Below are positions 8,001 to 56,333 of a stretch of DNA of 64,000 nucleotides, piece after piece. The DNA comes from Pleodorina starrii (Eukaryota; Chlorophyta; Chlorophyceae; Chlamydomonadales; Volvocaceae), in contig BRXU01000002.1 in NCBI GenBank assembly GCA_030267565.1, positions 8,747,001-8,811,000 of the forward strand, written 5' to 3'. Position 1 is the stretch's first letter; every line of letters starts with the position of its first letter. Below the pieces are notes generated by a model that made no database searches, was not told the DNA's origin, and saw only the letters and a list, made by a program, of their open reading frames with translations. Both the position numbers and the translations under genes were made by a program.

Positions 8001-8875
8001 GCCCGTGAGTTTGCGCTGGTGTACGGCCCCGACGATGTGGCGGCGGTCAACATGATCCACGACACGTCCGACCTGGCGCCCCTGGTGGCCGAGTACGACA
8101 AGGTGTGTGCGTATGTGTATGTACGACAATGTACGTATGTATGTATGTATGTATGTATGTATGTATGTATGTATGTATGTATGTATGTATGTATGTATGT
8201 ATGTATGTATGTATGTATGTATGTATGTATGTATGTATGTATGTATGTATGTATGTATGTATGTATGTATGTATGTATGTATGTATGTATGTATGTATGT
8301 ATGTATGTATGTATGTATGTATGTATGTATGTATGTATGTATGTATGTATGTATGTATGTATGTATGTATGTATGTATGTATGTATGTATGTATGTATGT
8401 ATGTATGTATGTATGTATGTATGTATGTATGTATGTATGTATGTATGTATGTATGTATGTATGTATGTATGTATGTATGTATGTATGTATGTATGTATGT
8501 ATGTATGTATGTATGTATGTATGTATGTATGTATGTATGTATGTATGTATGTATGTATGTATGTATGTATGTATGTATGTATGTATGTATGTATGTATGT
8601 ATGTATGTATGTATGTATGTATGTATGTATGTATGTATGTATGTATGTATGTATGTATGTATGTATGTATGTATGTATGTATGTATGTATGTATGTATGT
8701 ATGTATGTATGTATGTATGTATGTATGTATGTATGTATGTATGTATGTATGTATGTATGTATGTATGTATGTATGTATGTATGTATGTATGTATGTATGT
8801 ATGTATGTATGTATGTATGTATGTATGTATGTATGTATGTATGTATGTATGTATGTATGTATGTATGTATGTATG

Positions 8876-8906
<31 letters not shown>

Positions 8907-14900: not shown

Positions 14901-16841
14901 CTGCGCACTGGCGCTGGGGTCAGCAGGGGTCATCGCCGTCGGCGTCTCAGTGGCGGCGAGCCCCGTAGGGCAGCTGCCTCCTGCCCCAGGTGTACGCTGG
15001 GTTTGCCGTGGCGTTCTCCGGGGTGCCGCCGGCGTCAACTGCTGCTGCTGCGGCTGCCGCTGCTGAGGCGGCTGCTGTGGCTGACCGACGGCTGGTTCCG
15101 CTGCGATGGCAGCATGCTCCTCGGCCGAGTCCGCATTGGCGGGCGCCGCAGCCTGCTCCTCCTGCTGGTGTTGCCGCGCGTCGGTTGGGCCTGCCGTGGT
15201 GGCTGCCTGGACTGTGGCCTCGTGTGCTAGGGCCGCCGTGTTGGCAGGGCCTTCGGGTGTGCCGGCCGTAGCGGTCGCGTCCGCGGCGGCGGCGCGCTCC
15301 GCGGCGGTGGCGCGCTCCGCGGCGGCGGCACGCTCCGCGGCGGCGGCGCGCTCCGCGGCGGCGGCACGCTCCGCGGCGGCGGCGCGCTCCGCGGCGGCGG
15401 CACGTTCCGCGGCGGCGGCACGCTCCGCGGCGGCGGCGCGCTCCGCGGCGGCTGCTGTCCGCCGTTCGAGCCCCAGCTGCTCCCTCAGCGCTGCCTGCTG
15501 GGCCCGGGTTTCCCGGTCGTTTTGTTCCCGGATCTCCTCGGTCCGCCGGGCCAGGGCGGTCGCCGCGTCATCCGCGCCCAGTTGTTGGGCGGTCCCGGCT
15601 ACCTGTGTGGTTGCCGGTGCTGCGGGGGTCGTCCTTTGTGGCGCGGTCGTATCTGCCGCTCGGGCTGCCGCCGCTGGCCGGGGGTCCACGGGGTGTTCCG
15701 CCTGCGGTGCTGTGGCCCGACCGGTGGGTTGGGCACGTGCCCGCGCCTCGGCCTCCAAGCGGACCAGGTGATGCATGTATGTATGTATGTATGTATGTAT
15801 GCATGTATGTATGTATGTATGTATGTATGTATGTATGTATGTATGTATGTATGTATGTATGTATGTATGTATGTATGTATGTATGTATGTATGTATGTAT
15901 GTATGTATGTATGTATGTATGTATGTATGTATGTATGTATGTATGTATGTATGTATGTATGTATGTATGTATGTATGTATGTATGTATGTATGTATGTAT
16001 GTATGTATGTATGTATGTATGTATGTATGTATGTATGTATGTATGTATGTATGTATGTATGTATGTATGTATGTATGTATGTATGTATGTATGTATGTAT
16101 GTATGTATGTATGTATGTATGTATGTATGTATGTATGTATGTATGTATGTATGTATGTATGTATGTATGTATGTATGTATGTATGTATGTATGTATGTAT
16201 GTATGTATGTATGTATGTATGTATGTATGTATGTATGTATGTATGTATGTATGTATGTATGTATGTATGTATGTATGTATGTATGTATGTATGTATGTAT
16301 GTATGTATGTATGTATGTATGTATGTATGTATGTATGTATGTATGTATGTATGTATGTATGTATGTATGTATGTATGTATGTATGTATGTATGTATGTAT
16401 GTATGTATGTATGTATGTATGTATGTATGTATGTATGTATGTATGTATGTATGTATGTATGTATGTATGTATGTATGTATGTATGTATGTATGTATGTAT
16501 GTATGTATGTATGTATGTATGTATGTATGTATGTATGTATGTATGTATGTATGTATGTATGTATGTATGTATGTATGTATGTATGTATGTATGTATGTAT
16601 GTATGTATGTATGTATGTATGTATGTATGTATGTATGTATGTATGTATGTATGTATGTATGTATGTATGTATGTATGTATGTATGTATGTATGTATGTAT
16701 GTATGTATGTATGTATGTATGTATGTATGTATGTATGTATGTATGTATGTATGTATGTATGTATGTATGTATGTATGTATGTATGTATGTATGTATGTAT
16801 GTATGTATGTATGTATGTATGTATGTATGTATGTATGTATG

Positions 16842-16872
<31 letters not shown>

Positions 16873-34819: not shown

Positions 34820-37330
34820 CTCCTTGGACGGGGGCGTGGGTAGGTTCTGGGGGTCGGTGCCCTGCCTGTATATATGTAGCTCGGCTATATTTACTTGCTG
34901 CGTGGCTTGCAGAGAGCGAGCGCGTGTGTGTCGGAGACGGAGTCGGTTCGGGCTCCTGCTGTGATGGTCGTGCTTGTTTTTTGAGTACGCTGAGACGTCA
35001 GTCAAACGCACGCGGATAAGGCAGCTACTGTGACCTGAAGTGCGCGGTTCGAGTTGGTGCGTGTGTACGTGGGCAGGTAGGCACAGGTAGCAGATTTAAC
35101 GTACAGTGATGTGTTCTGTTTGTAAGTAATTTAGGGGCGATAAGTAATAAAACTTAGTAATTGTTAAAGCGCTAATTACATTAATTACAAAAAATACGAA
35201 TGAAGAAAATTGTGTCGTTTCGCGGGATTACAGCAGGTTAGTTCCATTCGTCGCTCCGTTAGTTCTCTTTCCCGTGGGCTCTTTTAAGCAGCAGCATGAA
35301 GGCATTAAAACACACATGCATGTCAATAGATAGCAGGTGTGCATTGTCATAATATTAGCGGGACCTTGCACGCACGCACCCCGGCTGCTGCTAGCGACAG
35401 CCGCTACGTCTTGATTGTCAGCTACGTTCGATCGCCAGCGTTGTTTGCGAGCTAAGACGTCCCAAGCTACCACATTCTGCACATATCTCAGTGACCATGG
35501 TTTTGTGCTTAATCATACGTAGTCTGTGTCATGAATAATGCTGGGGGGCGTGCGGAGGACGCAATTTGGGGAGTTACCATATTACTCGCGCATGCAGTAA
35601 GTAAAAGCTTGCATAGACAATGCTAGTTATCCGCATTTCGTCTGCTGGATTCCCGTTGATAAGTACGGGCTGTCAGCTGTCTGCTGGGGGTTAGACGGGC
35701 AGCAGACGTACGTGTAAGATGCGGGGCTAATTACTCGCTTGTAGGGGCTGAAAGGTTCAATGAAGACATCGAAAACATTTTCTTATCTACCATTGTTCGC
35801 AAGGCAACCCGAAACAATTCTACAGGGGTGTTAAACATTTTGAGCAGTAGGACTTCAACAGGGCAAAGTATCGATCGCACGTAGAGGTCCATTCAGGCAG
35901 CAGGTCTTCTTGTATGGTTACGCTCAACGGGGTATATATGTAGCCGCGCAACTACTACCATACGCATGGCAGCACCTCTGCGCTAAACACAAATCATCAT
36001 TATCAATAAAATTAAGGAAATTATAATACAGCTTTGCGACTAGGTGTGGTGCATTAGTATTATTTCTTCCTGCTCTCTTCAGCATTCACTTCAACGAAGA
36101 TGCGATGCCGTCTCTGTCCTGTACGTAATTTTTACACATTCAGCGGAGTTTCTTTCTACTATGATACTTGCATAAGTGTGAATCTTGACATAGTGGGCTT
36201 GATGGTTGGCGCGGTAAGGTGATGCATGAGGTTGTTGTCCATGCTAGGGTAGCAGGGTGCTTGTTACGTGAAGTCGCAAAAAGATCCGCGCCGCGTCATC
36301 AAAACCCTTAAATTGCAACATAACGCTTAATGAGGTTGAAAAGTTGAGACAGTCGCTGCGGTTGGGGGAGACGTTTGAATCCATGCATGCTCGTAAAGCG
36401 AATGTCGCGATACGTATTTTCCGGACACGCCGATGGACTAGACGCTCGCCGTAGACCGGTTGTTTGATCTATGACACATGTATACTGGGGGCGACATGGG
36501 CGCGATCGGCATCGTGGTGCGGGTCGGTGGAGCATGGACTCAACAACAAAATCAGCAGCCGGTTTTTTCTCATTCTACCCAGGAAAAAAGAATTGAGTGT
36601 GGGTTTAGGAGGCATGTTTAGTGCTTGCAGCGTTGCAGGGGGGGCGCGCGCTTCGCGCCGGAGGCCCTATGCCCCAAGAAAACAGCAGGGAAATTACCAG
36701 GACCGGTAAGCCTTCTCCGTGTCCCACCGGGTGATTGTTTCGTGACGCTCTGGGAACTAATTTGGAACCCCGGAGACTTCCATACACAGGAACTTCATCC
36801 GCCAGGTCGATTCGCAGCCTGCAAGGCGCTTGATGATGTGCATGTAGACGTTAATCTGTCGTTGCCGCTGTACCGTCGCGCCAACAGGTGAACAAAGAAT
36901 ATGGCTGCCGCGCCGGGCTGTTTGCAGGCCATGCAAAGCCATGTTGCAGCGGTATGGGGGAACGTAGCGCCATGAGCCTATGCTCACCCATTGCGTGCGT
37001 AGGCATTGGTATGCAGGCAGCAGGGCAGAAGCAGGAGCCCCGAAATGCCAGGCCAGGCCACGCTTCGTTTACGGTAACACTGTACGGCGGTTCTAACTAA
37101 CTCCTCACGGTTACACTACAATCCGATACAGCACCATCGAGTTGTCCGTCTGGCTCCTGCAAAAAGCAACCTAACCTGCAAAAACAAAATTTATAACGAC
37201 CGTCGCGATTTCGACTTTGGACTAGGACTACTGGCCGGTTGTCTCCTTCTGCTCACTCCGGCAGAAATGCCAGGCAAACGGCACCACGTGTTGCAACGAC
37301 ACAAAACCCATCCAACAATCCCCCACACGC
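34820..37330. repeat. Segmental duplication: blocks A (copy 1) and C (copy 1)
   Basis: A spans 34820-36085 (1266 bp) and C spans 36086-37330 (1245 bp). The A|C junction reads CTTCAGCAT|TCACTTC and is the empty insertion site of element T. The blocks contain only short ORFs that recur unchanged in each copy, with no recognisable protein; a possible small exon (GTTGCAG acceptor near 36640, GTAAGC donor near 36708) is not supported by context. Confidence 0.9.
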
Positions 37331-38596
37331 CTCCTTGGACGGGGGCGTGGGTAGGTTCTGGGGGTCGGTGCCCTGCCTGTATATATGTAGCTCGGCTATA
37401 TTTACTTGCTGCGTGGCTTGCAGAGAGCGAGCGCGTGTGTGTCGGAGACGGAGTCGGTTCGGGCTCCTGCTGTGATGGTCGTGCTTGTTTTTTGAGTACG
37501 CTGAGACGTCAGTCAAACGCACGCGGATAAGGCAGCTACTGTGACCTGAAGTGCGCGGTTCGAGTTGGTGCGTGTGTACGTGGGCAGGTAGGCACAGGTA
37601 GCAGATTTAACGTACAGTGATGTGTTCTGTTTGTAAGTAATTTAGGGGCGATAAGTAATAAAACTTAGTAATTGTTAAAGCGCTAATTACATTAATTACA
37701 AAAAATACGAATGAAGAAAATTGTGTCGTTTCGCGGGATTACAGCAGGTTAGTTCCATTCGTCGCTCCGTTAGTTCTCTTTCCCGTGGGCTCTTTTAAGC
37801 AGCAGCATGAAGGCATTAAAACACACATGCATGTCAATAGATAGCAGGTGTGCATTGTCATAATATTAGCGGGACCTTGCACGCACGCACCCCGGCTGCT
37901 GCTAGCGACAGCCGCTACGTCTTGATTGTCAGCTACGTTCGATCGCCAGCGTTGTTTGCGAGCTAAGACGTCCCAAGCTACCACATTCTGCACATATCTC
38001 AGTGACCATGGTTTTGTGCTTAATCATACGTAGTCTGTGTCATGAATAATGCTGGGGGGCGTGCGGAGGACGCAATTTGGGGAGTTACCATATTACTCGC
38101 GCATGCAGTAAGTAAAAGCTTGCATAGACAATGCTAGTTATCCGCATTTCGTCTGCTGGATTCCCGTTGATAAGTACGGGCTGTCAGCTGTCTGCTGGGG
38201 GTTAGACGGGCAGCAGACGTACGTGTAAGATGCGGGGCTAATTACTCGCTTGTAGGGGCTGAAAGGTTCAATGAAGACATCGAAAACATTTTCTTATCTA
38301 CCATTGTTCGCAAGGCAACCCGAAACAATTCTACAGGGGTGTTAAACATTTTGAGCAGTAGGACTTCAACAGGGCAAAGTATCGATCGCACGTAGAGGTC
38401 CATTCAGGCAGCAGGTCTTCTTGTATGGTTACGCTCAACGGGGTATATATGTAGCCGCGCAACTACTACCATACGCATGGCAGCACCTCTGCGCTAAACA
38501 CAAATCATCATTATCAATAAAATTAAGGAAATTATAATACAGCTTTGCGACTAGGTGTGGTGCATTAGTATTATTTCTTCCTGCTCTCTTCAGCAT
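37331..38596. repeat. Block A, copy 2
   Basis: Same 1266 bp as 34820-36085, joined to the preceding C at CACACGC|CTCCTTGG. This C-to-A junction occurs three times in the window and marks the first tandem duplication. Element T follows immediately. Confidence 0.92.
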
Positions 38597-38648
38597 TAGA
38601 GGATTTAGGAAACCTCAATAATCAAAGTTATATCTTTGAAGTTTGATA
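38597..38648 (+). repeat. Element T left terminal inverted repeat
   Basis: 52 bp pairing with 40094-40146. The outer 18 bp are perfect; the inner match includes ATCAAAGTTA and AAGTTTGATA with a few mismatches and one indel between. Confidence 0.8.
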
Positions 38649-38866
38649 CGACATTTTTGGAAACCCTCAAAGATACGGGGCTCAACTTTGATGAATCCAG
38701 GTTCAACTTCCCGGACACCTACCGCTCGTTCCTCAAGGATAAAGCCGAGCCGTACGTCGCAAAGTTGCATCTTTTGGATAGGGATACATACATTTCTGTG
38801 TTTGATAGGGAATCATTTCCTCATTTGGGCTTATCAACTTGGGCATTGAACGGAGACACTGAATAG
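38636..38866 (+). CDS. Element T small ORF, 76 aa, unknown
   Basis: Opens just inside the left TIR and ends in TAG exactly next to the rep stop, so the two ORFs converge tail to tail. The sequence (FPDTYRSFLKDKAEPYV..., DRDTYISVFDRESF) has ordinary composition and looks protein-like but matches no family I recognise. It could be a remnant of a capsid or accessory gene, or host sequence. Confidence 0.35.
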   Translation: MKFDTTFLETLKDTGLNFDESRFNFPDTYRSFLKDKAEPYVAKLHLLDRDTYISVFDRESFPHLGLSTWALNGDTE

Positions 38867-39565
38867 TCACCGAGAGAGCCGACTCGCAAGACTGGGCCAA
38901 GCAAGCGACCACTTGGTGGTGTTGAAAAACACCTGCATTCCGAGACGGCTCTTGCCGCTGTTGCCGACCACATCCTGCACCCAGATGATGGTGCGGTCGT
39001 TTGCGGGAAGAACCCGCCCGTCTGGACCCACCAGCTTTTCCAGCACAGCTTGCTGCCAGGGGCGTGGCACAAAGCCAAGCTCTGGACGAGGGAGGGCGTT
39101 GACAGCTGCCTCGTAGGCGTGGAGGCCATGACGAAAGCGGATGTAGGTCTCAGGCATGTCCAGAGCTACCCTCTTTACACCGTGTGTTCTCACAAGCAGC
39201 GCCGCATGGGTCAGGTCGTTGCGTTGTCCTTGTGCAGTCTCCCATTGGCCCACCTCCCAGGGCCCCTCAGCGCGCGTTGCTTGCGAGGAGACCCGCTCTT
39301 TTGCCGCATCTCTGCTGGTGTTCTCAACTCTCTGCTCCCAAGCGGCCGGTGCCTTCAGCCAATTTTGGCACGCGCTCAGGCGCACGGACTTGGTGAATTC
39401 CACATAGCCGTTAAACTCGAATTCGCCCGTCGGAAGCGAATCGAGCTGGAATATGCAATATCGCACGTAGTCAGGCACACTACTGCTTATATGGGCGTGC
39501 GTAACCGGGGCTGGTGGGGCTACTTTCAGGTGAAAGAACCAACACCTAGCACAATTACTCGACAT
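38867..39565 (-). CDS. Rep-like protein of CRESS-DNA type, truncated
   Basis: 232 aa. It follows the order of a rolling-circle Rep: a region like HUH motif I (CWFFHLKV, aa 8-15), FEFNGYVEF at aa 49-57 in the motif II position, EGPWEVGQW at aa 100-108, GQRNDL at aa 113-118, and a Walker A of the SF3 helicase (VVGNSGKS, ending at aa 206). The motif II histidine and motif III tyrosine expected in active Reps are not present at the aligned places, and the protein stops 26 residues after Walker A, so Walker B and motif C are missing. Endonuclease and helicase activity are therefore doubtful. Family Reps nick an origin hairpin and unwind DNA in rolling-circle replication. Confidence 0.75.
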   Translation of the reverse strand: MSSNCARCWFFHLKVAPPAPVTHAHISSSVPDYVRYCIFQLDSLPTGEFEFNGYVEFTKSVRLSACQNWLKAPAAWEQRVENTSRDAAKERVSSQATRAEGPWEVGQWETAQGQRNDLTHAALLVRTHGVKRVALDMPETYIRFRHGLHAYEAAVNALPRPELGFVPRPWQQAVLEKLVGPDGRVLPANDRTIIWVQDVVGNSGKSRLGMQVFFNTTKWSLAWPSLASRLSR

Positions 39566-39658
39566 TATGCCTAAAACAGAATAAAAAAGCTGCTTGATGT
39601 AGCTTTGGCCCGTCTTTTTATATGTTCTTTCCGGGCCTGGGTGTAGCAGCTAGCTGCT

Positions 39659-39767
39659 GGGCCCCCCCTGGTCCTGGATCGGACCGGACCAGAAGTGCCT
39701 TATATATAATATATATTATCTTATGGCGCACTTCTGGTCCGGTCCGGTCCAGGACCAGGGAGGGCCC
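39659..39767. promoter_or_regulatory. Long hairpin with AT-rich loop, origin-like
   Basis: Two ~39-bp arms (about 39659-39698 and 39726-39767, with CTGGTCCTGGA and CGGACCAGAAGTGC in the left arm) pair with about two mismatches around a ~26-nt loop of only A and T except one C and one G. It lies about 95 bp upstream of the rep start. CRESS-DNA replicons carry their origin in such a place, but the loop has no exact canonical nonanucleotide, so the origin role is inferred. Confidence 0.55.
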
Positions 39768-40093
39768 CGCCGATGCTATAACTCCGAAGACCAAAGGAAA
39801 GCGCCACATCACCAAATTCCCGTCTCCGTTTACTATCAATAGGATAAAAAGGGTAAACTACAACCCTTAAGAACGGGATTTGTAACCACGAAGACGACAT
39901 AGACACAAGAAGGGATAACATTGACAGCTCTATGTTGCGACTCCGGGCAATTATACTATCTAAATAGAGTTATTGATATACACATGCCTCTTGTAATGTT
40001 AATGGTCGTCTGTCGCACCCACAAAGCTTGCGTTCAAGTATACCTGCGGGTACCGTTAGGAAACCCAAAACAAAGATACGAGCGGACGCCGTA

Positions 40094-40146
40094 TATCAAA
40101 CTTAGGCCACTCTAACTTTGATGATAGTGGTTTCCTAAATCCTCTA
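40094..40146 (-). repeat. Element T right terminal inverted repeat
   Basis: 53 bp, imperfect inverse of 38597-38648, ending GGTTTCCTAAATCCTCTA. Confidence 0.8.
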
Positions 40147-40147
40147 T

Positions 40148-42519
40148 TCACTTCAACGAAGATGCGATGCCGTCTCTGTCCTGTACGTAATTTTTACACA
40201 TTCAGCGGAGTTTCTTTCTACTATGATACTTGCATAAGTGTGAATCTTGACATAGTGGGCTTGATGGTTGGCGCGGTAAGGTGATGCATGAGGTTGTTGT
40301 CCATGCTAGGGTAGCAGGGTGCTTGTTACGTGAAGTCGCAAAAAGATCCGCGCCGCGTCATCAAAACCCTTAAATTGCAACATAACGCTTAATGAGGTTG
40401 AAAAGTTGAGACAGTCGCTGCGGTTGGGGGAGACGTTTGAATCCATGCATGCTCGTAAAGCGAATGTCGCGATACGTATTTTCCGGACACGCCGATGGAC
40501 TAGACGCTCGCCGTAGACCGGTTGTTTGATCTATGACACATGTATACTGGGGGCGACATGGGCGCGATCGGCATCGTGGTGCGGGTCGGTGGAGCATGGA
40601 CTCAACAACAAAATCAGCAGCCGGTTTTTTCTCATTCTACCCAGGAAAAAAGAATTGAGTGTGGGTTTAGGAGGCATGTTTAGTGCTTGCAGCGTTGCAG
40701 GGGGGGCGCGCGCTTCGCGCCGGAGGCCCTATGCCCCAAGAAAACAGCAGGGAAATTACCAGGACCGGTAAGCCTTCTCCGTGTCCCACCGGGTGATTGT
40801 TTCGTGACGCTCTGGGAACTAATTTGGAACCCCGGAGACTTCCATACACAGGAACTTCATCCGCCAGGTCGATTCGCAGCCTGCAAGGCGCTTGATGATG
40901 TGCATGTAGACGTTAATCTGTCGTTGCCGCTGTACCGTCGCGCCAACAGGTGAACAAAGAATATGGCTGCCGCGCCGGGCTGTTTGCAGGCCATGCAAAG
41001 CCATGTTGCAGCGGTATGGGGGAACGTAGCGCCATGAGCCTATGCTCACCCATTGCGTGCGTAGGCATTGGTATGCAGGCAGCAGGGCAGAAGCAGGAGC
41101 CCCGAAATGCCAGGCCAGGCCACGCTTCGTTTACGGTAACACTGTACGGCGGTTCTAACTAACTCCTCACGGTTACACTACAATCCGATACAGCACCATC
41201 GAGTTGTCCGTCTGGCTCCTGCAAAAAGCAACCTAACCTGCAAAAACAAAATTTATAACGACCGTCGCGATTTCGACTTTGGACTAGGACTACTGGCCGG
41301 TTGTCTCCTTCTGCTCACTCCGGCAGAAATGCCAGGCAAACGGCACCACGTGTTGCAACGACACAAAACCCATCCAACAATCCCCCACACGCGCGCGACA
41401 CCTGCTCGGGCCTGGCGACGGGCGGAAGGCGGGAGTACTAGCCCTGGCAGAAGATGAAACACCAACGGCAGATGCCGTCTCCAGGCGGCAGCTGTTCCCA
41501 AAGAGGCGCAGCCTCCAGCTGCAAGCCGTACCCCGTACGGCAACCAACTTAACCGTTGATACCGATCGTCGTTAGAACCCGACTTCTCTGCCACGCATCT
41601 ATTTTGATCCTTCAATACTCACTCTTAATTGTGACCTATCGATACTCCCCTTTAACATCGTGTTGGGTGGTAGTCCTGAACCGTAACTGAACCCATCCCG
41701 GTGGCTCGTGCACACCCCCCTGCCTATGCACACCTCGACTGCCGGATCCTGTCTCCTTACTTGGTATCCGCCGTGACAATAAAAAAACAACCACCACATT
41801 ATCCTGCCGCCACCCAGCACCGCATACCGGCCACTATCCCGCAATCCCTTCATGCCCCCCCCCTTGGTGACCTGCACCCGACCACTCCGCAACGCGAACC
41901 CAGAGTACAATGGCGGCTGCATTGATGCCTGGTGACGAATGCCCCGTACGGATCCCTCCTGCCAACACATATCGTACTCAGCACATCCGTCGCGTCACCG
42001 AAACTGATGACCGGCCCACAACCCCCACGCTGTCCCACGCTGATCGTCCGCTCTACACCTGCACCTGAGCCCGTGCCTTTGCGCCTGTATCAAGCCTGCG
42101 TCTGCGCCTGCGGGTGCGATTGCGGCTCTCTAAAGCCTGCGAATGTCATTGTGACCGCCGCACCAGCGTCCGCGTAAGACTACCGGCGGTGTGCACACAT
42201 CTGCCTCCCACACCTTCGCCCTCTCGAGGCTGTCGCGGTGTCATCCTCCTGCTTCATTCCAGTGCATTCCTTTTGAGTGGTAGGGCCTAATGGGCCTTAT
42301 GGATCATCTCTTTTGAGATCCGGGCAGGACACCGCACACCGGCCTGCCTAGCATCGCAAACCTGACCTGACCAGTACGGCCCGATGGTACAGGCAGCAGC
42401 CGGCGCTGGACATCTCCTGCCAACCAGTTAAACAAACGCACGCACGCACACACACGTGCGAACACACAGACGTGCACACAGAAACACACACACTCACTCA
42501 CGACCGCCACAGCCGCCTG
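40148..42519. repeat. Blocks C (copy 2) and D (copy 1)
   Basis: C is 40148-41392, and D is 41393-42519 (1127 bp), which begins GCGCGACACCTGCTCGGG. In the gene X copies, D lies directly downstream of the gene's 3' end, so here it is a detached copy without block E. D holds short ORFs on both strands but no recognisable gene. Confidence 0.9.
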
Positions 42520-44397
42520 TAAGACGTCCCAAGCTACCACATTCTGCACATATCTCAGTGACCATGGTTTTGTGCTTAATCATACGTAGTCTGTGTCATG
42601 AATAATGCTGGGGGGCGTGCGGAGGACGCAATTTGGGGAGTTACCATATTACTCGCGCATGCAGTAAGTAAAAGCTTGCATAGACAATGCTAGTTATCCG
42701 CATTTCGTCTGCTGGATTCCCGTTGATAAGTACGGGCTGTCAGCTGTCTGCTGGGGGTTAGACGGGCAGCAGACGTACGTGTAAGATGCGGGGCTAATTA
42801 CTCGCTTGTAGGGGCTGAAAGGTTCAATGAAGACATCGAAAACATTTTCTTATCTACCATTGTTCGCAAGGCAACCCGAAACAATTCTACAGGGGTGTTA
42901 AACATTTTGAGCAGTAGGACTTCAACAGGGCAAAGTATCGATCGCACGTAGAGGTCCATTCAGGCAGCAGGTCTTCTTGTATGGTTACGCTCAACGGGGT
43001 ATATATGTAGCCGCGCAACTACTACCATACGCATGGCAGCACCTCTGCGCTAAACACAAATCATCATTATCAATAAAATTAAGGAAATTATAATACAGCT
43101 TTGCGACTAGGTGTGGTGCATTAGTATTATTTCTTCCTGCTCTCTTCAGCATTCACTTCAACGAAGATGCGATGCCGTCTCTGTCCTGTACGTAATTTTT
43201 ACACATTCAGCGGAGTTTCTTTCTACTATGATACTTGCATAAGTGTGAATCTTGACATAGTGGGCTTGATGGTTGGCGCGGTAAGGTGATGCATGAGGTT
43301 GTTGTCCATGCTAGGGTAGCAGGGTGCTTGTTACGTGAAGTCGCAAAAAGATCCGCGCCGCGTCATCAAAACCCTTAAATTGCAACATAACGCTTAATGA
43401 GGTTGAAAAGTTGAGACAGTCGCTGCGGTTGGGGGAGACGTTTGAATCCATGCATGCTCGTAAAGCGAATGTCGCGATACGTATTTTCCGGACACGCCGA
43501 TGGACTAGACGCTCGCCGTAGACCGGTTGTTTGATCTATGACACATGTATACTGGGGGCGACATGGGCGCGATCGGCATCGTGGTGCGGGTCGGTGGAGC
43601 ATGGACTCAACAACAAAATCAGCAGCCGGTTTTTTCTCATTCTACCCAGGAAAAAAGAATTGAGTGTGGGTTTAGGAGGCATGTTTAGTGCTTGCAGCGT
43701 TGCAGGGGGGGCGCGCGCTTCGCGCCGGAGGCCCTATGCCCCAAGAAAACAGCAGGGAAATTACCAGGACCGGTAAGCCTTCTCCGTGTCCCACCGGGTG
43801 ATTGTTTCGTGACGCTCTGGGAACTAATTTGGAACCCCGGAGACTTCCATACACAGGAACTTCATCCGCCAGGTCGATTCGCAGCCTGCAAGGCGCTTGA
43901 TGATGTGCATGTAGACGTTAATCTGTCGTTGCCGCTGTACCGTCGCGCCAACAGGTGAACAAAGAATATGGCTGCCGCGCCGGGCTGTTTGCAGGCCATG
44001 CAAAGCCATGTTGCAGCGGTATGGGGGAACGTAGCGCCATGAGCCTATGCTCACCCATTGCGTGCGTAGGCATTGGTATGCAGGCAGCAGGGCAGAAGCA
44101 GGAGCCCCGAAATGCCAGGCCAGGCCACGCTTCGTTTACGGTAACACTGTACGGCGGTTCTAACTAACTCCTCACGGTTACACTACAATCCGATACAGCA
44201 CCATCGAGTTGTCCGTCTGGCTCCTGCAAAAAGCAACCTAACCTGCAAAAACAAAATTTATAACGACCGTCGCGATTTCGACTTTGGACTAGGACTACTG
44301 GCCGGTTGTCTCCTTCTGCTCACTCCGGCAGAAATGCCAGGCAAACGGCACCACGTGTTGCAACGACACAAAACCCATCCAACAATCCCCCACACGC
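42520..44397. repeat. Partial block A (A2) and block C, copy 3
   Basis: A2 (42520-43152) equals the last 633 bp of A; C is 43153-44397. The D-to-A2 junction (GCCGCCTG|TAAGACG) is unique in the window and marks a 7067-bp tandem duplication of 35453-42519. The A|C site here is empty of element T. Confidence 0.92.
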
Positions 44398-45663
44398 CTC
44401 CTTGGACGGGGGCGTGGGTAGGTTCTGGGGGTCGGTGCCCTGCCTGTATATATGTAGCTCGGCTATATTTACTTGCTGCGTGGCTTGCAGAGAGCGAGCG
44501 CGTGTGTGTCGGAGACGGAGTCGGTTCGGGCTCCTGCTGTGATGGTCGTGCTTGTTTTTTGAGTACGCTGAGACGTCAGTCAAACGCACGCGGATAAGGC
44601 AGCTACTGTGACCTGAAGTGCGCGGTTCGAGTTGGTGCGTGTGTACGTGGGCAGGTAGGCACAGGTAGCAGATTTAACGTACAGTGATGTGTTCTGTTTG
44701 TAAGTAATTTAGGGGCGATAAGTAATAAAACTTAGTAATTGTTAAAGCGCTAATTACATTAATTACAAAAAATACGAATGAAGAAAATTGTGTCGTTTCG
44801 CGGGATTACAGCAGGTTAGTTCCATTCGTCGCTCCGTTAGTTCTCTTTCCCGTGGGCTCTTTTAAGCAGCAGCATGAAGGCATTAAAACACACATGCATG
44901 TCAATAGATAGCAGGTGTGCATTGTCATAATATTAGCGGGACCTTGCACGCACGCACCCCGGCTGCTGCTAGCGACAGCCGCTACGTCTTGATTGTCAGC
45001 TACGTTCGATCGCCAGCGTTGTTTGCGAGCTAAGACGTCCCAAGCTACCACATTCTGCACATATCTCAGTGACCATGGTTTTGTGCTTAATCATACGTAG
45101 TCTGTGTCATGAATAATGCTGGGGGGCGTGCGGAGGACGCAATTTGGGGAGTTACCATATTACTCGCGCATGCAGTAAGTAAAAGCTTGCATAGACAATG
45201 CTAGTTATCCGCATTTCGTCTGCTGGATTCCCGTTGATAAGTACGGGCTGTCAGCTGTCTGCTGGGGGTTAGACGGGCAGCAGACGTACGTGTAAGATGC
45301 GGGGCTAATTACTCGCTTGTAGGGGCTGAAAGGTTCAATGAAGACATCGAAAACATTTTCTTATCTACCATTGTTCGCAAGGCAACCCGAAACAATTCTA
45401 CAGGGGTGTTAAACATTTTGAGCAGTAGGACTTCAACAGGGCAAAGTATCGATCGCACGTAGAGGTCCATTCAGGCAGCAGGTCTTCTTGTATGGTTACG
45501 CTCAACGGGGTATATATGTAGCCGCGCAACTACTACCATACGCATGGCAGCACCTCTGCGCTAAACACAAATCATCATTATCAATAAAATTAAGGAAATT
45601 ATAATACAGCTTTGCGACTAGGTGTGGTGCATTAGTATTATTTCTTCCTGCTCTCTTCAGCAT
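44398..45663. repeat. Block A, copy 4
   Basis: Same 1266 bp as copy 2, displaced by 7067 bp, again followed by element T. Confidence 0.92.
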
Positions 45664-45702
45664 TAGAGGATTTAGGAAACCTCAATAATCAAAGTTATAT
45701 CT

Positions 45703-45933
45703 TTGAAGTTTGATACGACATTTTTGGAAACCCTCAAAGATACGGGGCTCAACTTTGATGAATCCAGGTTCAACTTCCCGGACACCTACCGCTCGTTCCT
45801 CAAGGATAAAGCCGAGCCGTACGTCGCAAAGTTGCATCTTTTGGATAGGGATACATACATTTCTGTGTTTGATAGGGAATCATTTCCTCATTTGGGCTTA
45901 TCAACTTGGGCATTGAACGGAGACACTGAATAG
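45703..45933 (+). CDS. Element T small ORF, copy 2
   Basis: Identical to the 76-aa ORF at 38636-38866; unknown function. Confidence 0.35.
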   Translation: MKFDTTFLETLKDTGLNFDESRFNFPDTYRSFLKDKAEPYVAKLHLLDRDTYISVFDRESFPHLGLSTWALNGDTE

Positions 45934-46632
45934 TCACCGAGAGAGCCGACTCGCAAGACTGGGCCAAGCAAGCGACCACTTGGTGGTGTTGAAAAACACC
46001 TGCATTCCGAGACGGCTCTTGCCGCTGTTGCCGACCACATCCTGCACCCAGATGATGGTGCGGTCGTTTGCGGGAAGAACCCGCCCGTCTGGACCCACCA
46101 GCTTTTCCAGCACAGCTTGCTGCCAGGGGCGTGGCACAAAGCCAAGCTCTGGACGAGGGAGGGCGTTGACAGCTGCCTCGTAGGCGTGGAGGCCATGACG
46201 AAAGCGGATGTAGGTCTCAGGCATGTCCAGAGCTACCCTCTTTACACCGTGTGTTCTCACAAGCAGCGCCGCATGGGTCAGGTCGTTGCGTTGTCCTTGT
46301 GCAGTCTCCCATTGGCCCACCTCCCAGGGCCCCTCAGCGCGCGTTGCTTGCGAGGAGACCCGCTCTTTTGCCGCATCTCTGCTGGTGTTCTCAACTCTCT
46401 GCTCCCAAGCGGCCGGTGCCTTCAGCCAATTTTGGCACGCGCTCAGGCGCACGGACTTGGTGAATTCCACATAGCCGTTAAACTCGAATTCGCCCGTCGG
46501 AAGCGAATCGAGCTGGAATATGCAATATCGCACGTAGTCAGGCACACTACTGCTTATATGGGCGTGCGTAACCGGGGCTGGTGGGGCTACTTTCAGGTGA
46601 AAGAACCAACACCTAGCACAATTACTCGACAT
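45934..46632 (-). CDS. Rep-like protein, copy 2
   Basis: Same 232-aa frame as 38867-39565, with the same motif losses and the same early end after Walker A. The lack of differences between copies points to very recent duplication. Confidence 0.75.
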   Translation of the reverse strand: MSSNCARCWFFHLKVAPPAPVTHAHISSSVPDYVRYCIFQLDSLPTGEFEFNGYVEFTKSVRLSACQNWLKAPAAWEQRVENTSRDAAKERVSSQATRAEGPWEVGQWETAQGQRNDLTHAALLVRTHGVKRVALDMPETYIRFRHGLHAYEAAVNALPRPELGFVPRPWQQAVLEKLVGPDGRVLPANDRTIIWVQDVVGNSGKSRLGMQVFFNTTKWSLAWPSLASRLSR

Positions 46633-46725
46633 TATGCCTAAAACAGAATAAAAAAGCTGCTTGATGTAGCTTTGGCCCGTCTTTTTATATGTTCTTTCCG
46701 GGCCTGGGTGTAGCAGCTAGCTGCT

Positions 46726-46834
46726 GGGCCCCCCCTGGTCCTGGATCGGACCGGACCAGAAGTGCCTTATATATAATATATATTATCTTATGGCGCACTT
46801 CTGGTCCGGTCCGGTCCAGGACCAGGGAGGGCCC
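46726..46834. promoter_or_regulatory. Origin-like hairpin, copy 2
   Basis: Duplicate of the hairpin at 39659-39767, in the same place upstream of rep copy 2. Confidence 0.5.
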
Positions 46835-47214
46835 CGCCGATGCTATAACTCCGAAGACCAAAGGAAAGCGCCACATCACCAAATTCCCGTCTCCGTTTAC
46901 TATCAATAGGATAAAAAGGGTAAACTACAACCCTTAAGAACGGGATTTGTAACCACGAAGACGACATAGACACAAGAAGGGATAACATTGACAGCTCTAT
47001 GTTGCGACTCCGGGCAATTATACTATCTAAATAGAGTTATTGATATACACATGCCTCTTGTAATGTTAATGGTCGTCTGTCGCACCCACAAAGCTTGCGT
47101 TCAAGTATACCTGCGGGTACCGTTAGGAAACCCAAAACAAAGATACGAGCGGACGCCGTATATCAAACTTAGGCCACTCTAACTTTGATGATAGTGGTTT
47201 CCTAAATCCTCTAT

Positions 47215-49586
47215 TCACTTCAACGAAGATGCGATGCCGTCTCTGTCCTGTACGTAATTTTTACACATTCAGCGGAGTTTCTTTCTACTATGATACTTGC
47301 ATAAGTGTGAATCTTGACATAGTGGGCTTGATGGTTGGCGCGGTAAGGTGATGCATGAGGTTGTTGTCCATGCTAGGGTAGCAGGGTGCTTGTTACGTGA
47401 AGTCGCAAAAAGATCCGCGCCGCGTCATCAAAACCCTTAAATTGCAACATAACGCTTAATGAGGTTGAAAAGTTGAGACAGTCGCTGCGGTTGGGGGAGA
47501 CGTTTGAATCCATGCATGCTCGTAAAGCGAATGTCGCGATACGTATTTTCCGGACACGCCGATGGACTAGACGCTCGCCGTAGACCGGTTGTTTGATCTA
47601 TGACACATGTATACTGGGGGCGACATGGGCGCGATCGGCATCGTGGTGCGGGTCGGTGGAGCATGGACTCAACAACAAAATCAGCAGCCGGTTTTTTCTC
47701 ATTCTACCCAGGAAAAAAGAATTGAGTGTGGGTTTAGGAGGCATGTTTAGTGCTTGCAGCGTTGCAGGGGGGGCGCGCGCTTCGCGCCGGAGGCCCTATG
47801 CCCCAAGAAAACAGCAGGGAAATTACCAGGACCGGTAAGCCTTCTCCGTGTCCCACCGGGTGATTGTTTCGTGACGCTCTGGGAACTAATTTGGAACCCC
47901 GGAGACTTCCATACACAGGAACTTCATCCGCCAGGTCGATTCGCAGCCTGCAAGGCGCTTGATGATGTGCATGTAGACGTTAATCTGTCGTTGCCGCTGT
48001 ACCGTCGCGCCAACAGGTGAACAAAGAATATGGCTGCCGCGCCGGGCTGTTTGCAGGCCATGCAAAGCCATGTTGCAGCGGTATGGGGGAACGTAGCGCC
48101 ATGAGCCTATGCTCACCCATTGCGTGCGTAGGCATTGGTATGCAGGCAGCAGGGCAGAAGCAGGAGCCCCGAAATGCCAGGCCAGGCCACGCTTCGTTTA
48201 CGGTAACACTGTACGGCGGTTCTAACTAACTCCTCACGGTTACACTACAATCCGATACAGCACCATCGAGTTGTCCGTCTGGCTCCTGCAAAAAGCAACC
48301 TAACCTGCAAAAACAAAATTTATAACGACCGTCGCGATTTCGACTTTGGACTAGGACTACTGGCCGGTTGTCTCCTTCTGCTCACTCCGGCAGAAATGCC
48401 AGGCAAACGGCACCACGTGTTGCAACGACACAAAACCCATCCAACAATCCCCCACACGCGCGCGACACCTGCTCGGGCCTGGCGACGGGCGGAAGGCGGG
48501 AGTACTAGCCCTGGCAGAAGATGAAACACCAACGGCAGATGCCGTCTCCAGGCGGCAGCTGTTCCCAAAGAGGCGCAGCCTCCAGCTGCAAGCCGTACCC
48601 CGTACGGCAACCAACTTAACCGTTGATACCGATCGTCGTTAGAACCCGACTTCTCTGCCACGCATCTATTTTGATCCTTCAATACTCACTCTTAATTGTG
48701 ACCTATCGATACTCCCCTTTAACATCGTGTTGGGTGGTAGTCCTGAACCGTAACTGAACCCATCCCGGTGGCTCGTGCACACCCCCCTGCCTATGCACAC
48801 CTCGACTGCCGGATCCTGTCTCCTTACTTGGTATCCGCCGTGACAATAAAAAAACAACCACCACATTATCCTGCCGCCACCCAGCACCGCATACCGGCCA
48901 CTATCCCGCAATCCCTTCATGCCCCCCCCCTTGGTGACCTGCACCCGACCACTCCGCAACGCGAACCCAGAGTACAATGGCGGCTGCATTGATGCCTGGT
49001 GACGAATGCCCCGTACGGATCCCTCCTGCCAACACATATCGTACTCAGCACATCCGTCGCGTCACCGAAACTGATGACCGGCCCACAACCCCCACGCTGT
49101 CCCACGCTGATCGTCCGCTCTACACCTGCACCTGAGCCCGTGCCTTTGCGCCTGTATCAAGCCTGCGTCTGCGCCTGCGGGTGCGATTGCGGCTCTCTAA
49201 AGCCTGCGAATGTCATTGTGACCGCCGCACCAGCGTCCGCGTAAGACTACCGGCGGTGTGCACACATCTGCCTCCCACACCTTCGCCCTCTCGAGGCTGT
49301 CGCGGTGTCATCCTCCTGCTTCATTCCAGTGCATTCCTTTTGAGTGGTAGGGCCTAATGGGCCTTATGGATCATCTCTTTTGAGATCCGGGCAGGACACC
49401 GCACACCGGCCTGCCTAGCATCGCAAACCTGACCTGACCAGTACGGCCCGATGGTACAGGCAGCAGCCGGCGCTGGACATCTCCTGCCAACCAGTTAAAC
49501 AAACGCACGCACGCACACACACGTGCGAACACACAGACGTGCACACAGAAACACACACACTCACTCACGACCGCCACAGCCGCCTG
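47215..49586. repeat. Blocks C (copy 4) and D (copy 2)
   Basis: C is 47215-48459 and D is 48460-49586. D runs directly into block E at CCGCCTG|CCCTGAAC, as it does at the intact gene X locus. Confidence 0.92.
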
Positions 49587-51664: not shown

Positions 51665-53961
51665 CAAAACCCTTAAATTGCAACATAACGCTTAATGAGG
51701 TTGAAAAGTTGAGACAGTCGCTGCGGTTGGGGGAGACGTTTGAATCCATGCATGCTCGTAAAGCGAATGTCGCGATACGTATTTTCCGGACACGCCGATG
51801 GACTAGACGCTCGCCGTAGACCGGTTGTTTGATCTATGACACATGTATACTGGGGGCGACATGGGCGCGATCGGCATCGTGGTGCGGGTCGGTGGAGCAT
51901 GGACTCAACAACAAAATCAGCAGCCGGTTTTTTCTCATTCTACCCAGGAAAAAAGAATTGAGTGTGGGTTTAGGAGGCATGTTTAGTGCTTGCAGCGTTG
52001 CAGGGGGGGCGCGCGCTTCGCGCCGGAGGCCCTATGCCCCAAGAAAACAGCAGGGAAATTACCAGGACCGGTAAGCCTTCTCCGTGTCCCACCGGGTGAT
52101 TGTTTCGTGACGCTCTGGGAACTAATTTGGAACCCCGGAGACTTCCATACACAGGAACTTCATCCGCCAGGTCGATTCGCAGCCTGCAAGGCGCTTGATG
52201 ATGTGCATGTAGACGTTAATCTGTCGTTGCCGCTGTACCGTCGCGCCAACAGGTGAACAAAGAATATGGCTGCCGCGCCGGGCTGTTTGCAGGCCATGCA
52301 AAGCCATGTTGCAGCGGTATGGGGGAACGTAGCGCCATGAGCCTATGCTCACCCATTGCGTGCGTAGGCATTGGTATGCAGGCAGCAGGGCAGAAGCAGG
52401 AGCCCCGAAATGCCAGGCCAGGCCACGCTTCGTTTACGGTAACACTGTACGGCGGTTCTAACTAACTCCTCACGGTTACACTACAATCCGATACAGCACC
52501 ATCGAGTTGTCCGTCTGGCTCCTGCAAAAAGCAACCTAACCTGCAAAAACAAAATTTATAACGACCGTCGCGATTTCGACTTTGGACTAGGACTACTGGC
52601 CGGTTGTCTCCTTCTGCTCACTCCGGCAGAAATGCCAGGCAAACGGCACCACGTGTTGCAACGACACAAAACCCATCCAACAATCCCCCACACGCCTCCT
52701 TGGACGGGGGCGTGGGTAGGTTCTGGGGGTCGGTGCCCTGCCTGTATATATGTAGCTCGGCTATATTTACTTGCTGCGTGGCTTGCAGAGAGCGAGCGCG
52801 TGTGTGTCGGAGACGGAGTCGGTTCGGGCTCCTGCTGTGATGGTCGTGCTTGTTTTTTGAGTACGCTGAGACGTCAGTCAAACGCACGCGGATAAGGCAG
52901 CTACTGTGACCTGAAGTGCGCGGTTCGAGTTGGTGCGTGTGTACGTGGGCAGGTAGGCACAGGTAGCAGATTTAACGTACAGTGATGTGTTCTGTTTGTA
53001 AGTAATTTAGGGGCGATAAGTAATAAAACTTAGTAATTGTTAAAGCGCTAATTACATTAATTACAAAAAATACGAATGAAGAAAATTGTGTCGTTTCGCG
53101 GGATTACAGCAGGTTAGTTCCATTCGTCGCTCCGTTAGTTCTCTTTCCCGTGGGCTCTTTTAAGCAGCAGCATGAAGGCATTAAAACACACATGCATGTC
53201 AATAGATAGCAGGTGTGCATTGTCATAATATTAGCGGGACCTTGCACGCACGCACCCCGGCTGCTGCTAGCGACAGCCGCTACGTCTTGATTGTCAGCTA
53301 CGTTCGATCGCCAGCGTTGTTTGCGAGCTAAGACGTCCCAAGCTACCACATTCTGCACATATCTCAGTGACCATGGTTTTGTGCTTAATCATACGTAGTC
53401 TGTGTCATGAATAATGCTGGGGGGCGTGCGGAGGACGCAATTTGGGGAGTTACCATATTACTCGCGCATGCAGTAAGTAAAAGCTTGCATAGACAATGCT
53501 AGTTATCCGCATTTCGTCTGCTGGATTCCCGTTGATAAGTACGGGCTGTCAGCTGTCTGCTGGGGGTTAGACGGGCAGCAGACGTACGTGTAAGATGCGG
53601 GGCTAATTACTCGCTTGTAGGGGCTGAAAGGTTCAATGAAGACATCGAAAACATTTTCTTATCTACCATTGTTCGCAAGGCAACCCGAAACAATTCTACA
53701 GGGGTGTTAAACATTTTGAGCAGTAGGACTTCAACAGGGCAAAGTATCGATCGCACGTAGAGGTCCATTCAGGCAGCAGGTCTTCTTGTATGGTTACGCT
53801 CAACGGGGTATATATGTAGCCGCGCAACTACTACCATACGCATGGCAGCACCTCTGCGCTAAACACAAATCATCATTATCAATAAAATTAAGGAAATTAT
53901 AATACAGCTTTGCGACTAGGTGTGGTGCATTAGTATTATTTCTTCCTGCTCTCTTCAGCAT
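51665..53961. repeat. Partial block C (C') and block A, copy 5
   Basis: C' (51665-52695) equals the last 1031 bp of C; A is 52696-53961. The E-to-C' junction (CCAAGGT, then CCC, then CAAAACCC) is unique and marks a 6747-bp tandem duplication. Confidence 0.92.
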
Positions 53962-56333
53962 TCACTTCAACGAAGATGCGATGCCGTCTCTGTCCTGTAC
54001 GTAATTTTTACACATTCAGCGGAGTTTCTTTCTACTATGATACTTGCATAAGTGTGAATCTTGACATAGTGGGCTTGATGGTTGGCGCGGTAAGGTGATG
54101 CATGAGGTTGTTGTCCATGCTAGGGTAGCAGGGTGCTTGTTACGTGAAGTCGCAAAAAGATCCGCGCCGCGTCATCAAAACCCTTAAATTGCAACATAAC
54201 GCTTAATGAGGTTGAAAAGTTGAGACAGTCGCTGCGGTTGGGGGAGACGTTTGAATCCATGCATGCTCGTAAAGCGAATGTCGCGATACGTATTTTCCGG
54301 ACACGCCGATGGACTAGACGCTCGCCGTAGACCGGTTGTTTGATCTATGACACATGTATACTGGGGGCGACATGGGCGCGATCGGCATCGTGGTGCGGGT
54401 CGGTGGAGCATGGACTCAACAACAAAATCAGCAGCCGGTTTTTTCTCATTCTACCCAGGAAAAAAGAATTGAGTGTGGGTTTAGGAGGCATGTTTAGTGC
54501 TTGCAGCGTTGCAGGGGGGGCGCGCGCTTCGCGCCGGAGGCCCTATGCCCCAAGAAAACAGCAGGGAAATTACCAGGACCGGTAAGCCTTCTCCGTGTCC
54601 CACCGGGTGATTGTTTCGTGACGCTCTGGGAACTAATTTGGAACCCCGGAGACTTCCATACACAGGAACTTCATCCGCCAGGTCGATTCGCAGCCTGCAA
54701 GGCGCTTGATGATGTGCATGTAGACGTTAATCTGTCGTTGCCGCTGTACCGTCGCGCCAACAGGTGAACAAAGAATATGGCTGCCGCGCCGGGCTGTTTG
54801 CAGGCCATGCAAAGCCATGTTGCAGCGGTATGGGGGAACGTAGCGCCATGAGCCTATGCTCACCCATTGCGTGCGTAGGCATTGGTATGCAGGCAGCAGG
54901 GCAGAAGCAGGAGCCCCGAAATGCCAGGCCAGGCCACGCTTCGTTTACGGTAACACTGTACGGCGGTTCTAACTAACTCCTCACGGTTACACTACAATCC
55001 GATACAGCACCATCGAGTTGTCCGTCTGGCTCCTGCAAAAAGCAACCTAACCTGCAAAAACAAAATTTATAACGACCGTCGCGATTTCGACTTTGGACTA
55101 GGACTACTGGCCGGTTGTCTCCTTCTGCTCACTCCGGCAGAAATGCCAGGCAAACGGCACCACGTGTTGCAACGACACAAAACCCATCCAACAATCCCCC
55201 ACACGCGCGCGACACCTGCTCGGGCCTGGCGACGGGCGGAAGGCGGGAGTACTAGCCCTGGCAGAAGATGAAACACCAACGGCAGATGCCGTCTCCAGGC
55301 GGCAGCTGTTCCCAAAGAGGCGCAGCCTCCAGCTGCAAGCCGTACCCCGTACGGCAACCAACTTAACCGTTGATACCGATCGTCGTTAGAACCCGACTTC
55401 TCTGCCACGCATCTATTTTGATCCTTCAATACTCACTCTTAATTGTGACCTATCGATACTCCCCTTTAACATCGTGTTGGGTGGTAGTCCTGAACCGTAA
55501 CTGAACCCATCCCGGTGGCTCGTGCACACCCCCCTGCCTATGCACACCTCGACTGCCGGATCCTGTCTCCTTACTTGGTATCCGCCGTGACAATAAAAAA
55601 ACAACCACCACATTATCCTGCCGCCACCCAGCACCGCATACCGGCCACTATCCCGCAATCCCTTCATGCCCCCCCCCTTGGTGACCTGCACCCGACCACT
55701 CCGCAACGCGAACCCAGAGTACAATGGCGGCTGCATTGATGCCTGGTGACGAATGCCCCGTACGGATCCCTCCTGCCAACACATATCGTACTCAGCACAT
55801 CCGTCGCGTCACCGAAACTGATGACCGGCCCACAACCCCCACGCTGTCCCACGCTGATCGTCCGCTCTACACCTGCACCTGAGCCCGTGCCTTTGCGCCT
55901 GTATCAAGCCTGCGTCTGCGCCTGCGGGTGCGATTGCGGCTCTCTAAAGCCTGCGAATGTCATTGTGACCGCCGCACCAGCGTCCGCGTAAGACTACCGG
56001 CGGTGTGCACACATCTGCCTCCCACACCTTCGCCCTCTCGAGGCTGTCGCGGTGTCATCCTCCTGCTTCATTCCAGTGCATTCCTTTTGAGTGGTAGGGC
56101 CTAATGGGCCTTATGGATCATCTCTTTTGAGATCCGGGCAGGACACCGCACACCGGCCTGCCTAGCATCGCAAACCTGACCTGACCAGTACGGCCCGATG
56201 GTACAGGCAGCAGCCGGCGCTGGACATCTCCTGCCAACCAGTTAAACAAACGCACGCACGCACACACACGTGCGAACACACAGACGTGCACACAGAAACA
56301 CACACACTCACTCACGACCGCCACAGCCGCCTG
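53962..56333. repeat. Blocks C (copy 6) and D (copy 3), downstream of gene X
   Basis: C is 53962-55206 and D is 55207-56333. This is the copy contiguous with the full gene X, so it is probably in the original arrangement, with A-C-D as the spacer between gene X and the AP2 gene. The A|C site is empty of element T. Confidence 0.92.

Follow-up and report, generated by a model that had tools for sequence, protein, structure and literature searches.

We analysed a window of 64,000 nucleotides from Pleodorina starrii (contig BRXU01000002.1, hereafter C2, positions 8,747,001 to 8,811,000). It holds an element with terminal inverted repeats (TIRs), 1,548 bp long (38598–40145), whose termini were fixed by aligning filled against empty units of the tandem array around it. 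Its features, in window coordinates, are:

38598..40145 (no strand): TIR element, 1,548 bp; from the TIRs and empty-site comparison
38595..38597 (no strand): left target-site duplication, ATT; filled/empty comparison
38598..38650 (+): left TIR, inner limit approximate; arm alignment and comparison with an element on contig C26
38636..38866 (+): 76-aa 'convergent ORF', overlapping the transposon end and the sequence downstream of rep; ORF list, Pfam and comparison with a relic on contig C5
38773..38935 (−): remaining part of the sequence that follows rep, common to the C5 relic (86%) and partly to a relic on contig C18; sequence comparison
38867..39565 (−): CRESS-type Rep ORF, 232 aa, with nuclease residues substituted and the helicase ending after Walker A; Pfam, PDB and relic comparison
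38934..38935 (−): junction where rep has lost about 349 bp internally, as compared with the C18 relic, with 2-bp microhomology; sequence comparison, length by hand
39656..39770 (−): long hairpin upstream of rep, with 43-nt arms, an AT-rich loop and GGTCC repeats in the stem; folding and shuffles
39890..40145 (no strand): right terminal block, 86–88% identical to an older copy on contig C3, which is flanked by neither Rep nor hairpin; sequence comparison
40093..40145 (−): right TIR, inner limit approximate; arm alignment
40146..40148 (no strand): right target-site duplication, ATT; filled/empty comparison
36084..36086 (no strand): empty site; filled/empty comparison
43151..43153 (no strand): empty site; filled/empty comparison
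53960..53962 (no strand): empty site, exact 21-bp match only; sequence match
45665..47212 (no strand): second copy, letter-identical, inside an exact 7,067-bp duplication; self-comparison

The TIRs are imperfect and about 52 bp long. Their ungapped arms of 34 nt (38597–38630 and 40113–40146) are 91% complementary, with likeness over some 50–58 bp when small gaps are allowed, and their local alignment score was 64, compared with a maximum of 35 in 2,000 letter shuffles. The terminal 17-mer occurs four times in the window, each time exactly, where 0.03 occurrences are expected at up to three mismatches. The filled site reads GCATT/AGAGG...CCTCT/ATTCAC and the empty site GCATTCAC, giving a 3-bp target-site duplication (TSD) of ATT; the window has at least three empty sites. 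Together, TIRs, TSD and empty sites bear out the original prediction that this was a discrete insertion. The unit of about 1,550 bp with TIRs of about 52 bp that it described also holds, but its boundaries, 38597 and 40146, are each one base too wide.

The insertion sits inside a 2.5-kb tandem array. Positions 35453–49586 of the window form a higher-order tandem array, a 7,067-bp duplication of 2,511-bp units, in which 35453–42519 is exactly repeated as 42520–49586 and about 1.1 kb of other sequence (41393–42519) is included. Because the second filled copy lies inside this exact duplication, the window shows one insertion event, later duplicated. The higher-order array may have arisen very recently or may reflect the assembly. 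ATGT tetranucleotide arrays, long and nearly perfect, occupy 8129–9024 (224 copies) and 15771–16871 (275 copies), and scans of the window for tRNAs and for Rfam families at the gathering threshold gave no match. GC content along the element shifts from 35.8% in the left 106 bp to 58.5% in rep and 42.4% in the right 257 bp, as expected of a chimaera, a pattern that coding sequence alone could also cause.

The rep gene, its hairpin and its relics

The Rep ORF matched the Pfam family Viral_Rep (PF02407) with an E-value of 5.4e-5 and 23.8 bits, below the 26-bit cut-off; in the genome scan the match reached 25.6 bits, or 26.1 bits with its neighbours, above the cut-off, and none of 14 control genomes matched. 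Against PDB, the ORF aligned with the N-terminal domain of replication-associated protein (E 7.3e-7), in entries that we take to be nanovirus Reps. Viral_Rep homology and this structural match uphold the claim of a CRESS-virus-type Rep. Structure prediction from the single sequence was uninformative (mean pLDDT 37).

The PDB alignment also places different residues at the histidine position (HUH/HUQ) of what we take to be motif II (residues 50–52) and at the tyrosine and lysine positions of what we take to be motif III (residues 91 and 94). The copy on contig C16 has the same residues as the window Rep at these substituted nuclease positions. Walker A of the superfamily 3 helicase is kept (residues 201–206), while Walker B, motif C and the rest are missing, and the ORF takes its last 22 residues from sequence downstream of rep. 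As judged from its sequence, one would not expect the window Rep to function as a normal nuclease-helicase. Between C2 and C16, rep differs by two replacement changes, one silent change and one frameshifting indel, a very small sample in which no constraint is apparent.

A large protein search returned no relatives of Rep, either at E≤1e-3 or at E≤10 (1,219 candidates each). Among viral contigs, seven stretches fitted the pattern and none was confirmed, and a degenerate motif had no matches there. Phages yielded no relatives, PHROGs and NCBIfam gave no match, and the best plasmid match listed, among the best 10 of 19 records, had an E-value of 2 and was taken as chance. Thus, no parent replicon was found in the protein, viral-contig, plasmid and phage searches.

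Within the P. starrii genome, Rep sequence of very different age was found on five contigs (C2, C16, C5, C18 and C28), and the genome scan detected no N-terminal Rep domain beyond the C2 and C16 copies. The C18 relic holds the stretch missing from the window rep, in two separate open pieces that, by eye, look like the rest of a Rep helicase. The C5 relic keeps the last part of the helicase region, and its stop looks like the natural stop of rep. More diverged and carrying stops, the C28 relic (locus L076, about 743–1300) retains the middle region and Walker A together with the stretch after it; it had an E-value of 0.0016 in the genome search, and 3.5e-7 (tblastn) and 3.4e-9 (tblastx) with two fetched stretches as sole targets. 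These helicase-like stretches were recognised by eye and by relic-to-relic similarity. Searched against Pfam and PDB, the relic helicase pieces had no match, the sole PDB row (E 0.6) being an unrelated ciliary protein, and the C18 piece gave nine stretches in viral contigs, none of them confirmed. A weak match of contig C24 to the L046 frame was rejected as Rep, since what is in common is the sequence next to a Rep relic; C20 also matched this frame weakly.

No recognisable element ends lie near the C5, C18 and C28 relics in the genome-wide search for the 17-mer. Nor did any appear when the sequences around the C5 and C18 relics were loosely aligned to the ends, and a scan allowing four mismatches found no TIR in the 2.4 kb around the C28 relic.

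The arms of the hairpin upstream of rep are 93% complementary, and its stability (z −12.8) was equalled by none of 200 shuffles. CRESS origins consist of a stem-loop with a nonanucleotide of the TANTATTAC type, and their stem is usually much shorter than 43-nt arms. Four matches to TANTATTAC occur in the window, none of them within the element. The hairpin and its position agree with the proposed origin-like structure upstream of rep, but the lack of the nonanucleotide and the long arms do not. In the genome search the hairpin was present at four places, all in copies of the element (C2 twice, C16 twice), and on this ground the idea of a separate MITE was rejected. The second, convergent ORF that had been predicted exists as an open frame but does not look like a conserved gene: it has no Pfam family, spans two unrelated blocks and carries a 4-bp indel in the C5 relic.

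Copies of the ends elsewhere in the genome

We searched 136,057,477 bases on 95 contigs; the genome search scored the best candidates, and counts of element copies are accordingly to be read as 'at least'. The exact terminal 17-mer was found at 10 places (four on C2, two on C16, one on C3 and three on C26). Allowing up to two mismatches gave 18 places, compared with 9 for a reversed control; as chance would yield about as many as the 8 imperfect places, the exact ones alone were counted. Among the imperfect sites, those on C12 (L061; 33 bp at 88%) and C6 (L057; 18–22 bp) are perhaps old ends. Read into the TIR, the flanking triplets are ATT and AAT on C2, AAT on C16, AGT and AAT on C26, and AGT on C3; A-N-T was present at six of six ends with the exact 17-mer, duplicated copies being counted once.

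The C16 copy covers the element rightwards from about 39039; its left part is missing. Over 1,109 aligned positions it is 99.5% identical to the C2 element (four substitutions and one indel), and it has been duplicated, the two copies being identical to each other; a fragment of 286 bp is also present. Its site differs from that on C2, the empty form being GTGCAAT/AAAAGG in C16 array units; the right side alone of this insertion is visible, the left end being absent. The copy sits in another tandem array (L042–L043), whose units measure about 4.2 kb, and has undergone rearrangement and duplication there. The copies on C2 and C26 are likewise found in repeat arrays.

On C3, the right 257 bp of the element are present at 86–88% identity, an older copy interrupted by another insertion; the block ends at about 39890, with neither rep nor the hairpin beside it. 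Nested in this right end, at L044 4260–4617, is an insertion of about 358 bp with inverted ends of its own, recognised by eye.

The C26 element, in contrast, carries no Rep. It measures 2,862 bp (L041, 319–3180), has exact 81-bp TIRs and is accompanied by a 2,142-bp partial copy. Its ends are 80% identical to those of the C2 element, an identity that the left terminal block of the latter shows to about 38702. Inside lies a multi-exon gene whose exons correspond by eye to a 385-aa P. starrii protein (P0001), the first exon (247 aa) being 97% identical to it. Next to the right TIR is the truncated start of an AAA_25-like ATPase (E 2.2e-5, below cut-off); apart from this weak match and a chance-level AAA_9, Pfam recognised nothing in the C26 genes, and a search for viral relatives of the ATPase start gave 11 stretches, none confirmed. 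One end of the C26 element fits an empty site, GACGAC/ATT/GCTG, and the other has different flanks. Because the flanking triplets of the two ends differ, a TSD is not verifiable at C26. The inner part of the C26 end also has a match on C25 (L074).

Copies with the same ends are thus present at unlinked sites on C2, C16, C3 and C26; the original prediction had named a genome-wide search for such copies as its check. The ends define a small family.

Mobility of the element and the role of Rep

Terminal repeats, a 3-bp duplication and a target preference of this kind are those of cut-and-paste class II transposons. Of four ORFs of the element scanned against Pfam, Rep alone matched, and no transposase was recognised. 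The element is probably a non-autonomous TIR transposon that is moved in trans and carries a decayed CRESS segment as cargo. A transposase encoded elsewhere in the genome, by inference of the DDE type, would recognise the ends (AGAGGATTTAGGAAACC and subterminal repeats) and insert the element at A-N-T triplets, giving the 3-bp duplication. One copy would have acquired a CRESS-type segment, either from a replicon (virus or plasmid) or from an already endogenous relic of one, so that rep, the sequence following it and the upstream hairpin came to lie between the ends. The chimaera would then have transposed as a unit at least twice, to C2 and C16, while rep decayed. The fusion would have preceded both insertions, which are recent, judging by the near identity of the two copies. 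We infer that rep was captured rather than ancestrally owned and, as the parent replicon was not found, the capture junctions are placed by inference somewhere in 38703–38772 and near 39890.

Rep itself is unlikely to be the mover, since its catalytic positions are replaced, its helicase is cut after Walker A and the hairpin lacks the origin nonanucleotide. The existence of a Rep-free element with similar ends and of transposed Rep copies without catalytic residues makes Rep most likely cargo. The notion of an element built around Rep finds no support in view of the C26 element, with similar ends and no Rep, of a window Rep that lacks its nuclease residues and most of its helicase, and of the C5, C18 and C28 relics with no recognisable ends nearby. 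As counterpoints, C3 may have lost an interior that once held rep, and the C5, C18 and C28 relics may be truncated elements.

In a different history, Rep would have been the element's own gene and, maybe together with a transposase, would have replicated it; the present copies would be the decayed remains of a CRESS-derived transposon lineage and the C26 element a derivative with a swapped interior. In its favour, Rep, hairpin and right end travelled as one at C2 and C16, five contigs retain Rep sequences that differ greatly in age, and a transposon of Tuber melanosporum shows that such a combination occurs, according to the passages on it in PMC3198968. We nevertheless consider this history rather unlikely: no ends accompany the C5, C18 and C28 relics, the C3 end stands without rep and the nuclease residues are replaced in both transposed copies. 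TIRs and a TSD fit DDE transposition, which also counts against such a lineage, as does the lack of TIRs in Replitrons, the known HUH transposons of green algae, as described in part of PMC10741241. Passive integration of CRESS DNA into a resident transposon, by Rep nicking or double-strand-break repair, would make the unit-like appearance accidental. There is precedent in the CRESS Rep relics of many eukaryotic genomes, several of which lie in host genes or transposons (listed in parts of PMC3198968), but the chimaera recurs, with its right terminus unchanged, at a second site not linked to the first, and so was mobile after fusion. As a complete account, passive integration is largely refuted by the C16 copy and we regard it as quite improbable; as a step in the origin of the chimaera it is compatible with the cargo reading.

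That the ORF is not a CRESS Rep at all, or that the element is an assembly artefact of the tandem array, seems highly improbable. Such doubts could draw on the modest E-values (5.4e-5, with the ORF below the Pfam cut-off), on the empty result at E≤10 among 1,219 candidates of the large protein search, on the relic helicase pieces without a Pfam or PDB match and on the exact identity of the two window copies. They are countered by the independent PDB match (7.3e-7), a Walker A where one is expected, relic-to-relic similarity in the helicase region and a C16 copy that carries differences of its own. A bolder extension, which we hold to be unlikely, is that a volvocine transposon family has repeatedly taken up replication modules of extrachromosomal replicons, namely the CRESS Rep and hairpin at C2/C16 and the AAA_25-like ATPase start at C26; its older members were maybe mobile as circles and as transposons. 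If true, it would offer a route for the exchange of parts between CRESS replicons and transposons.

Related elements and implications

Pack-type transposons (Pack-MULEs and similar) are non-autonomous TIR elements that hold captured gene pieces between conserved ends. Unlike theirs, the cargo of the Pleodorina element is CRESS-type, and the genome has no further N-terminal Rep domain beyond C2/C16. A close precedent comes from T. melanosporum. The passages on the subject in Liu et al. 2011 (PMC3198968) present a transposon bounded by TIRs whose geminivirus-like Rep has decayed; they count 42 Rep genes or remnants, and the element has transposase ORFs in its interior, 37-bp TIRs and no obvious TSD. 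Both are TIR-bounded, carry a decayed CRESS-type Rep and have multiplied in a eukaryotic genome, and the prediction of an undescribed class is too strong in view of this precedent, as far as those passages describe it. Relative to the same passages, the Pleodorina element differs in having few copies, no recognised transposase ORF, TIRs of about 52 bp and a 3-bp TSD with empty sites, and its Rep N terminus is nearest, among solved structures, to nanovirus Rep, in a green algal host.

Teratorn of medaka, as presented in part of PMC10175614, is a 180-kb fusion of a piggyBac-like transposon with a herpesvirus. It shares with the Pleodorina element the union of a cut-and-paste transposon with a DNA virus, whereas the latter is 1.5 kb long, CRESS-type, non-autonomous and decayed. 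Replitrons, by the account in parts of PMC10741241, are HUH transposons that occur in green algae and in some land plants, with short direct terminal repeats, no TIRs and TSDs of 2–8 bp. An HUH-related protein, a short element, green algal hosts and a TSD in this length range are common to both; in contrast to that account, the Pleodorina element has TIRs and a nuclease domain without key residues. A table in PMC3198968 credits the green alga Micromonas pusilla with one virus-related gene, apparently in the Rep column. None of the open-licence papers listed reports a CRESS Rep transposon in a volvocine alga, or an encounter of the volvocine lineage with CRESS replicons.

The element is a documented case, with TSD and empty sites, of a TIR transposon that carries a CRESS Rep segment and moves with it. 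It touches on how endogenous Rep genes multiply, whether through the nuclease that they encode or as passengers of DNA transposons; the former is thought to occur and has not been experimentally confirmed, according to the section concerned in PMC10175614. Our findings suggest that the volvocine lineage met CRESS replicons, and that a transposon can take up and disseminate pieces of small single-stranded DNA virus or plasmid replicons.
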